A stretch of 64,000 bases of DNA from Bryobacterales bacterium (GTDB taxonomy: Bacteria > Acidobacteriota > Terriglobia > Bryobacterales > Bryobacteraceae). The position numbers and the translations under genes are program-made. The stretch's first letter is position 1; every line of letters starts with the position of its first letter. Positions 14,258 to 57,684 of this stretch are shown piece by piece. The notes beneath the pieces are model-generated. The model did no database searches. It saw only the letters and a list, made by a program, of their open reading frames with translations, and was not told where the DNA came from. The stretch is taken from contig PLRS01000036.1 of the NCBI GenBank assembly GCA_003164035.1, positions 1-64,000 on the forward strand, written 5' to 3'.

Positions 14258-14360
14258 CAACCGCTCCCTCGCGGTCGCGGCTCGGTTACGAGTGGCAGTC
14301 ACTTACCGCGACCGTCGGGAGCTGGGGATTAAATCGCAAGTCGCAGGCGGAACCGCCTGC
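14258..14360. repeat. Degenerate CGCTCCCT palindrome followed by a GCAGGCGG hairpin
   Basis: Left arm CCGCTCCCTCGCGGTCGCGG (14261-14280) and the partly decayed right arm ACCGCGACCGTCGGGAGC belong to the same family as 18958-19140, 22666-22798, 27450-27576 and 32857-32990. It is followed by the hairpin GCAGGCGGAACCGCCTGC (14343-14360). It fills the gap between two convergent genes. Confidence 0.65.
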
Positions 14361-14366
14361 GCCACC

Positions 14367-18957: not shown

Positions 18958-19140
18958 GCACTCATTCCGGTGGGGTGCTTAACCGACCTGGGGATTTCGC
19001 AGTTGAGGCACGGCAACCGCTCCCTAACGGTTGCGGCTCGGTAACGGGCACCGCGTGTTTGCAGTCACTTACCGAGCCGCGACCGTCAGGGAGCGGTTGC
19101 CGGGAACTAACTCCCCAAATCGGTTAAGCACTCATTCCGG
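18958..19140. repeat. CGCTCCCT palindromic element, complete copy with flanking direct repeats
   Basis: The core is a long inverted repeat: GGCAACCGCTCCCTAACGGT (from 19012) against its near complement ending at about 19102, with a loop GTAACGGGCACCGCGTGTTT. Outer arms are TGCTTAACCGACCTGGGGA (18977 onward) and TCCCCAAATCGGTTAAGCA (up to 19130). The 13-bp GCACTCATTCCGG stands directly repeated at both ends (18958-18970 and 19128-19140). The look is that of a small non-autonomous element. This and the preceding palindrome fill the 370-bp gap 18802-19172. Confidence 0.75.
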
Positions 19141-19172
19141 CGCCTGGGCCACCGACAGACTGCTAAAATCGA

Positions 19173-22598: not shown

Positions 22599-22665
22599 GG
22601 GAGCGCGGGCCTGCCCCACATAAGGCAGGGCGCCGCCCGCGCCTAAATGGGTCGGCTCATCAAGC

Positions 22666-22798
22666 ACTCCATTTCGGAATTACGGCCACATAATGAGCAA
22701 CCGCTCCCTAACGGTCGCGGCTCGGTTTCGCGCGTTTCCGAGCCGCGACCGTTAGGGAGCGCTTTTCTTGATACGTGGCCGTAATTCCGAAATGGAGT
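22666..22798. repeat. Nested CGCTCCCT palindromic element
   Basis: Outer perfect 24-bp arms begin ACTCCATTTCGGAATTACGG (22666-22689) and return at 22775-22798. Inner perfect 24-bp arms begin CGCTCCCTAACGGTCGCGGC (22702-22725) and return at 22738-22761. The core is shared with the copies at 19.0, 27.5 and 32.9 kb, but the outer arms are different from theirs. It is the first half of the 423-bp gap 22599-23021, which holds no gene. Confidence 0.8.
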
Positions 22799-22808
22799 AC
22801 TAAGGGCT

Positions 22809-22985
22809 CGTCAAGAAACAACTGTGCCATTTCGGCGTGGCGCACGCACTCGTGCGTGCCGCGTCGGCACTTTTGCCGACGCTCGGCGTACCGTACGCAA
22901 GCGGGTGTCGAGAAAAGTCTCGACACGGCACGCACGAGTGCGTGCGCCACGTCGCGCTCCAGGATTTGGCATGGTTATTTCATGA
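22809..22985. repeat. GGCATGGTTATTTC-ended palindromic element, copy 1
   Basis: Perfect 25-bp arms start GTGGCGCACGCACTCGTGCG (22837-22861) and return at 22926-22950. Between them are two hairpins, GTCGGCA/TGCCGAC (22863-22880) and TGTCGAGA/TCTCGACA. The right end GGCATGGTTATTTCATGAC (22968-22986) matches the end of the element at 61081-61350; the left end GTCAAGAAACAACTGTGCC is its diverged inverse. No coding capacity. Confidence 0.7.
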
Positions 22986-27449: not shown

Positions 27450-27576
27450 GGCGCTTAACCGATTTTGGGGGAGTTAGTTTCCCGCAACTGCTCCCTGGCG
27501 GTCGCGGCTCGGTAAGTGACTGCAAACACGCGGTGTCCGTAACCGAGCCGCGACCGTCAGGGAGCGGTTGCCGGCA
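27450..27576. repeat. CGCTCCCT palindromic element, reverse-oriented copy
   Basis: Left end GCGCTTAACCGATTTTGGGG, then arms CTCCCTGGCGGTCGCGGCTC and GAGCCGCGACCGTCAGGGAG around a loop GTAAGTGACTGCAAACACGC. The loop is the reverse complement of the loop in the 19.0-kb copy, so the two copies are oppositely oriented. The right outer arm is missing. Together with the frameshifted small gene it fills the gap 27184-27613. Confidence 0.75.
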
Positions 27577-32856: not shown

Positions 32857-32990
32857 GCTCGCGGGCAAGAACTCCTGGCGGTCGCGCCTCGGTTACGAGG
32901 GCCGTGTTTCAGTCGCTTACCGAGGCGCGACCGCCAGGGAGTTCTTGCCCGCGAGCGAATTTCCCCGGATCGGTTAAGCGCCAGCCGCCG
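32857..32990. repeat. CGCTCCCT-family palindromic element with compensated arms
   Basis: Arms GCTCGCGGGCAAGAACTCC... (32857-32893) and their complement (32919-32956) pair over 37 bp with one bulge. Compared with other copies, both arms carry matching changes (GCCTCGG with CCGAGGC; AAGAACTCC with GGGAGTTCTT), so pairing has been kept. The right end ATCGGTTAAGCG is as in the other copies, and CTCATTCCGG recurs at 33041-33050. The remaining gap 32686-33194 shows no gene. Confidence 0.75.
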
Positions 32991-57517: not shown

Positions 57518-57684
57518 CGTTCTTCGTGGTCTGCCCTGATCTGTGTTCTCGAGCGCCGCCTCTGACGAGGCTTGGGACCGCTCCCTTAGAAGCTGTGAAA
57601 AAATCACAAGTCGCAGGCGGAACCGCCTGCGCCACCAAAGCAACTGCATCGTTTTCAATGGTGGGGCAGGCGGTTCCGCCTGCC
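57507..57684. repeat. GGGCAGACCA hairpin plus two GCAGGCGG hairpins
   Basis: GGGCAGACCA/TGGTCTGCCC (57507-57536) belongs to the ACAGACGATCG family. GCAGGCGGAACCGCCTGC (57613-57630) and GGGCAGGCGGTTCCGCCTGC (57663-57682) follow. All are in the gap between the secreted protein and the response-regulator gene; the first one overlaps a possible start codon. Confidence 0.65.

Follow-up and report, generated by a model that had tools for sequence, protein, structure and literature searches.

The window (64,000 nucleotides of contig PLRS01000036.1 from the Bryobacterales bacterium assembly GCA_003164035.1) contains, at 32.9 kb, a long hairpin built from an inverted pair of REP-like units, and further copies of the same units at four other places. 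At 32.9 kb, positions 32857-32893 pair with 32919-32956 in one stem with a single unpaired base, made up of the blocks 32857-32875/32938-32956 (19 bp, 100%) and 32874-32893/32919-32938 (20 bp, 100%). Folded as single-stranded DNA, this hairpin has an energy of -54.8 kcal/mol and a z-score of -11.9 against dinucleotide shuffles, with 0 of 200 shuffles as good; the near-perfect pairing claimed in the original prediction is thereby borne out. The five places that it gave for the element (14258, 18958, 22666, 27450 and 32857) are right, with three remarks on individual copies; position 18,958 belongs to the flank of a hairpin spanning 19,011-19,102. Matches to GGTCGCGGCTCGG at up to 2 mismatches number 21 in the window versus 9.4 expected, a count reached by none of 100 shuffles.

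The repeated unit, here called a REP-like arm, is about 26 nt long and can fold alone. It has a foot of the form CnGA, then a stem of 5 bp, a tandem G.A mismatch, two further base pairs and a GNNA loop, and reads CnGA-GCCGC-GA-CC-GNNA-GG-GA-GCGGT on the foot strand. The arms, and the outer repeats (the "shell") that enclose some of them, are placed in the window as follows.

14260-14285, minus strand: REP-like arm, 7/7 pairs; the downstream partner (right arm of the 14,258 copy) is partly deleted
18964-18972, plus strand: 9-bp target duplication on the left of the 19-kb element, 8/9 match
18973-19133, plus strand: complete shell element, GGGTGCTTAACC...GGTTAAGCACTC, enclosing an inverted REP pair
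19016-19041, minus strand: REP-like arm in the 19-kb element, 7/7 pairs
19072-19097, plus strand: REP-like arm in the 19-kb element, 7/7 pairs
19134-19142, plus strand: 9-bp target duplication on the right of the 19-kb element
22663-22801, no strand: 22.7-kb pair, its loop short and its outer inverted repeat of another sequence (AGCACTCCATTTCGGAATTACGGCC, GCACTCCATTTCGGAATTACGGCC)
22700-22725, minus strand: REP-like arm of the 22.7-kb pair, 7/7 pairs
22738-22763, plus strand: REP-like arm of the 22.7-kb pair
27451-27469, plus strand: shell end on the left of the 27.5-kb pair (terminal inverted repeat, 3 mismatches)
27487-27512, minus strand: REP-like arm of the 27.5-kb pair
27543-27568, plus strand: REP-like arm of the 27.5-kb pair, 7/7 pairs
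32857-32956, no strand: the 32.9-kb hairpin, two inverted REP-like arms whose pairing extends further outward
32868-32892, minus strand: left REP-like arm, 1 base short of consensus, with its CCGA foot on this strand
32893-32919, no strand: linker separating the two feet, about 28 nt, its sequence partly conserved in the family
32920-32945, plus strand: right REP-like arm, foot CCGA at 32920-32923
32963-32982, minus strand: CCCCGGATCGGTTAAGCGCC, the shell's terminal inverted repeat on the right of the 32.9-kb copy

Other palindromes lie among these features. A second strong palindrome family without the REP core (TGGCGCACGCACTCGTGCGTGCC..., at 22833-22954) recurs in the family, and similar letters adjoin REP arms at loci L183 and L234. 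The palindrome GCAGGCGGAACCGCCTGCGCCACC is found at 57613-57683 and at about 14347-14366, and the same repeat adjoins REP arms in L003, L007, L018 and L140; from its position beside arms, palindromic repeats in this genome seem to fuse or insert into one another.

Arms within 2 mismatches of the consensus number about 614 (310 + 304; control 0) in the 8.0-Mb genome, and the exact doublet GGTCGCGGCTCGGT...ACCGAGCCGCGACC occurs 100 times, with none for the reversed-pattern control. That exact doublet was found in 0 of 395 other genomes drawn from the phylum, whereas 123 of 200 family genomes, counting the source genome, have matches to a full element at E <=0.01. A family alignment was built of 125 rows, 31 of which were dropped for gaps in an arm, leaving 94 with both arms and 93 distinct copies. 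The stem sequence in this alignment is nearly invariant save for its outer end and two adjacent positions, which are the middle of the GNNA loop. Single arms show modest folding: across 8 of them, computed as DNA, between 0 and 61 of 200 shuffles did equally well (12 for the arm of the source genome), and folding energies by themselves are weak evidence for the arm hairpin. Variant arms were seen in L232, L248 and L249 and in L229, L257 and L272, some with a three-base loop and others with a one-base stem bulge (AGTCGG).

Many pairs lie in the shell, an element of about 160 bp (158-bp consensus) with terminal inverted repeats; arms also occur without it and inside other outer repeats. An outer repeat resembling that of the 22.7-kb pair is present in L158 and L162 as well, which suggests a second kind of shell. 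The shell-end pattern GTGCTTAACCGATCTGGGG, preceded by GG, has 139 + 117 matches in the genome at up to 3 mismatches (controls 0 and 1), and both arms are present in 55 of the 60 elements of 120-170 bp; copies were sampled partly by way of the shell ends, so the sample does not give the share of all arms that lie inside shells. Directly outside the GG...CC ends, a 9-bp direct repeat matching at 7 or more of 9 positions flanks 32 of the 60 elements versus 0.7 by re-pairing, and mean identity is 0.694 at a spacing of 9 and 0.25-0.35 at spacings of 4-8 and 10-14. Of 19 elements taken from genomes of the family (L165-L183), 8 show a shell end on either side, 7 of these with both arms at up to 2 mismatches. 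At the 32.9-kb copy no left terminal inverted repeat was found at up to 5 mismatches; its empty site was not found in 40 relatives, two of which match the downstream flank of the query only.

The terminal inverted repeats and 9-bp direct repeats are of the kind by which ISKra4-type MITEs are recognized. According to the available text of PMC3942029, ISKra4 and related groups have 8-9-bp direct repeats, terminal inverted repeats of 18-39 bp and a terminal C. IS200/IS605-type transposases, in the portion of PMC2817692 that was available, are not known to make 9-bp target duplications, and the shell elements thus depart from the absence of any larger target-site duplication that marks IS200/IS605 elements. 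The 160-bp elements were therefore probably spread by a DDE transposase, judging from their ends and flanks. ISKra4 matches are present in 12 of 16 relatives that have such elements or arms, in 7 of them over the cut-off. The ISKra4 of L200 (genome G460) has 22-bp perfect ends, GGGTGCTTACGCGTTTCCGGGA, starting GGGTGCTTA and identical at 17/21 positions to that genome's own MITE end; that of L208 (G551) has a right end, CCCCAAACCGGTTAAGCACCC, identical at 19/21 positions to the MITE end, and its left end was not found. No matching 9-bp repeat was found at three ISKra4 elements examined. The source genome itself has only three ISKra4 fragments, all below the cut-off, and a transposase enclosed between two exact shell ends was not found in it. 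Decayed or cut ISKra4 fragments at L193 (G000:C63:6500-10247) and L194 have another end, GGGTGCGCGACGTAGAAGTGGAGG, with only GGGTGC in common with the MITE ends. Separately, at L065:1501-1744 ISKra4-like ends as in the MITE, with a direct repeat matching at 8 of 9 positions, enclose a quite different interior, partly common to L050; these interiors indicate that the shell carries other cargo too.

Elsewhere in the source genome, an intact-looking Y1_Tnp gene (G000:C48:9609-10100; 164 aa, no stops) is bracketed by two perfect CCGA arms, CCGAGCCGCGACCGTGAGGGAGCGGT and its inverse. It is one of 12 Y1_Tnp profile matches in the genome (C48:9789-9974 falls in this ORF). The protein scores 26.9 bits against Pfam Y1_Tnp (cut-off 23) and only 33.8 bits against NCBIfam REP_Tyr_transpos (cut-off 80), and a PDB search by sequence returned nothing at E 0.01. 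Its motifs are SHVH, WA and YVVEEQ, the HVH and Y being invariant among 12 aligned proteins. A second homologue is a 57-residue fragment at C1:6982-7152. In an arm search at the 12 Y1_Tnp loci, 8 had no arm within about 1.5 kb, with this gene among the remaining four, and the arm sequence was absent at the other 11; two weak structural arm matches at one of these (L187) look unrelated. A "class 3" of TnpA_Y1 with a CnGA foot has been published for Planctomycetes and Acidobacteria, and the available text of that report (PMC6006769) gives its criteria as an NHVH-type HUH motif, YV[VI][AENY]EQ, W[TA] and a length of about 178 aa. Motifs, CnGA foot and host group agree with assignment of the 164-aa protein to class 3, as a prediction from its sequence. 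A classic RAYT beside the repeats was considered and rejected, in that the foot is mostly CnGA, not GTAG/GTGG, and the transposase is of the predicted class 3 type.

Class 3 homologues were found in 69 of the 200 family genomes, and named protein relatives are mostly from Bryobacterales and Solibacter-type acidobacteria, with some from Legionella, other Proteobacteria and planctomycetes and one Lentisphaerae record; a planctomycete host, considered at first, was rejected on the basis of the close relatives. Downstream of the gene (at most 75 nt from the stop, at least 17/24 matches), at 26 of 30 loci with the ORF located, 20 arms face outward and 2 inward, 3 loci have none and 1 meets a contig end. 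In a wider set, selected for an arm just downstream of the gene, 33 of 37 distinct loci have that arm in outward orientation, and 61 of 77 class 3 loci in named genomes have an arm within about 600 bases. Gene and repeat co-occur imperfectly across the family: the median arm count is 41 in the 69 gene-positive and 1 in the 131 gene-negative genomes (p 7e-12, uncorrected for kinship), with exceptions in 6 gene-positive genomes that have no arm at up to 2 mismatches and 36 gene-negative ones that have 10 or more. Distances between TnpA proteins and between arms were not significantly correlated (Mantel rho 0.10, p 0.18, n 37). In kind the original prediction holds: the arms are REP-like units of a Y1 (HUH) transposase, with a cognate-looking gene in the same genome. 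The suggestion of a RAYT-type gene elsewhere in the genome holds insofar as a Y1 transposase flanked by two inverted arms is there, and fails in that this is, by prediction, class 3 and not a GTAG-type RAYT; similarly, the proposal of a REP-like element moved by a transposase is supported by this gene with its two arms, whereas the 9-bp duplications of shell copies indicate a DDE route for those.

Arms beside class 3 genes allow the fold to be compared across species. Set A2 comprised 53 aligned arms from 30 family loci with class 3 genes, hand-chosen for similarity to the consensus and not for pairing; the foot is CnGA in 42 of the 53, and in 9 of the remaining 11 it still ends in GA. For the single-arm structure, 90.3% of cells are paired and 21 cells are changed on both sides versus a shuffled mean of 4.0 (0/500), with a covariation score of 0.251 versus 0.108 shuffled and at most 0.106 for slid structures, all against controls that leave relatedness in. 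Pair 12-19 is seen as C-G, G-C, A-T and T-A, and pair 8-23 as G-C, C-G, A-T and T-A. A second set, chosen automatically from named genomes, held 119 distinct arms; in the 78 outside A2, and with relatedness likewise left in the controls, 34 cells are changed on both sides versus 7.6 shuffled (maximum 16 in 500) and 81.5% of cells are paired versus 74% shuffled, and one slid structure reached 22 both-changed cells. On the foot strand G.T exceeds A.C by 42:4 in A2 and 47:11 in the second set (12:4 and 20:8 without the outermost pair), and the CnGA strand is therefore likely the folded one. Compensatory change of this sort across species supports selection that acts on the single arm as a single-stranded hairpin.

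Within the genome, the two arms of a pair were compared at 25 conserved positions in 93 pairs (2,308 cells). Changes in one arm number 52 and cells changed in both number 10, spread over 5 copies, with 4 in the 32.9-kb copy and 3 in L055. The original claim that both arms changed together at 32.9 kb is correct for that copy, which has 4 co-changed positions and no singly changed one in the conserved stem relative to the family consensus; as a rule for copies across the genome it fails, since single changes outnumber paired ones. Across species it is the single arm that covaries, and not the long stem between arms; selection on the hairpin as single-stranded DNA, also part of the original prediction, is supported for the single arm and unlikely for the long stem.

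Compensatory selection on the long arm-to-arm stem, as a cruciform or a single-stranded DNA substrate, might nevertheless be put forward for the changes at 32.9 kb. The 10 co-changed cells exceed those of re-paired arms (0.43 on average, maximum 5 in 500 trials), and the 32.9-kb copy has four without a single change; however, any co-change is confined to 5 of the 93 copies, 7 of the 10 cells lie in two of them, and the paired tract runs past the family stem, so that this selection is an unlikely source of the changes. Moreover, at the two loop positions, which are unpaired in the arm's own hairpin, the arms of a pair agree in 130 of 186 cells (0.699) versus 0.396 when re-paired. Agreement at bases that need no match points to shared descent or copying between arms as the main source of likeness within pairs.

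Retention of the long hairpin as RNA (a terminator, mRNA-stability element or small RNA), with selection for RNA pairing as the cause of the paired changes, would accord with the strength of the hairpin and with the apparently intergenic position of the copies in the window. It is a very improbable explanation, given that the window has no Rfam match at gathering scores, that the arm-to-arm stem gives no RNA strand signature within the genome (G.U 47 versus A.C 56), that Watson-Crick pairing is lacking in 41 of 93 copies at the position of this stem that varies most, and that what is conserved in each arm is its sequence and not just its pairing. The paired variants could also belong to an old subfamily whose founder was already changed in both arms, with later copies lost or unsampled. 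One arm each of L003, L097 and L116 does show this substitution (C to G, arm column 6); both changed arms, however, are common to none of the other aligned copies, and a search of the source genome with the 32.9-kb copy gave as next matches, among the 40 scored of 155 candidates, only ones at 89% or less over part of the element. An old subfamily thus has a small chance of being the explanation. Most likely, the joint change at 32.9 kb was a single event in which one arm templated the other, and not serial compensatory substitutions. The 32.9-kb copy ranks first of 94 in complementarity past the family stem (6/7; mean 3.1, sd 1.0), which fits a single event of copying from one arm to the other, and this reading draws on one or two copies. 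The paired changes had been offered as a sign of selection on the hairpin itself; with copying of one arm favoured, they are not good evidence for it.

These comparisons bear as well on whether the elements are plain MITEs, in which an ISKra4-type transposase moved along a long hairpin that is just an ancestral inverted duplication, the Y1 gene having inserted next to two arms by coincidence. The 9-bp repeats, the terminal inverted repeats and the excess of single over paired arm changes would all be expected of such an element. Yet arms adjoin class 3 genes in many genomes, mostly facing outward, they are found without the shell and with other outer repeats, and the arm covaries across species; the flanking arms largely refute the plain MITE, which we consider improbable.

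Each part of the element has known counterparts. The class 3 TnpA_Y1 systems, in the available text of PMC6006769, resemble the present one in the protein (HVH and YVVEEQ), the CnGA foot, the flanking inverted structures, the hundreds of copies (about 600 of the class 3-associated structure in Solibacter usitatus Ellin6076) and the acidobacterial relatives, and differ in that the pairs here sit in a MITE-like shell with 9-bp repeats. In 2018 these proteins were set apart as possible insertion-sequence/REP intermediates, with "atypical" flanking structures spotted by eye; the tandem G.A/GNNA fold and its covariation were measured here, and the fold may already be drawn in PMC6006769. RAYT/REP/BIME systems, as far as the available part of PMC2817692 describes them, likewise have the gene between two inverted REPs, doublets with a linker, counts that track the gene and complementary mutations noted in the REPs, whereas here the foot is CnGA, not GTAG/GTGG, and the hairpin is weaker, with G.A mismatches. 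ISKra4 (p-MULT 4) and its MITEs, in the accessible text of PMC3942029, share the GGGTGC...GCACCC ends and 9-bp repeats, the ends resembling the ISKra4 of relatives; unlike ISKra4, the shell has no transposase inside and its cargo is the REP pair of another transposition system. The kind of arm is thus already known, and the hybrid packaging, a REP pair in a MITE shell, is the new and unexpected part. A literature search at title and abstract level, with most subscription journals outside its coverage, recognized no REP-in-MITE hybrid and no class 3 follow-up.

Taken jointly, we hold with good confidence that the elements are foot-to-foot REP pairs of a class 3 TnpA_Y1 (HUH) system, captured in an ISKra4-type MITE, with one-arm templating at 32.9 kb. 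The class 3 transposase would bind the CnGA-foot strand as single-stranded DNA and would have made the arms multiply, and selection by this protein would keep the hairpin of the arm. An ISKra4-type DDE transposon may then have captured an inverted REP pair between its ends, and its transposase would have spread the captured pair as a MITE. At the 32.9-kb copy, one arm may have templated the other by a template switch or by quasipalindrome correction. A more far-reaching description is offered tentatively and is somewhat doubtful as a whole: a composite of two unrelated systems, with DDE (ISKra4/Mutator-type) ends and 9-bp duplications around an HUH single-stranded hairpin pair, copyable by either, and a non-canonical fold kept by compensatory evolution across phyla.

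In summary, the alignments give the class 3 structure an explicit definition, with covariation over several phyla, which opens its binding and cleavage to tests with defined oligonucleotides. Should the hybrid reading be true, REP sequences can spread on the machinery of another transposon, and the usual assumption that the number of REPs reflects the activity of their cognate transposase would be loosened.
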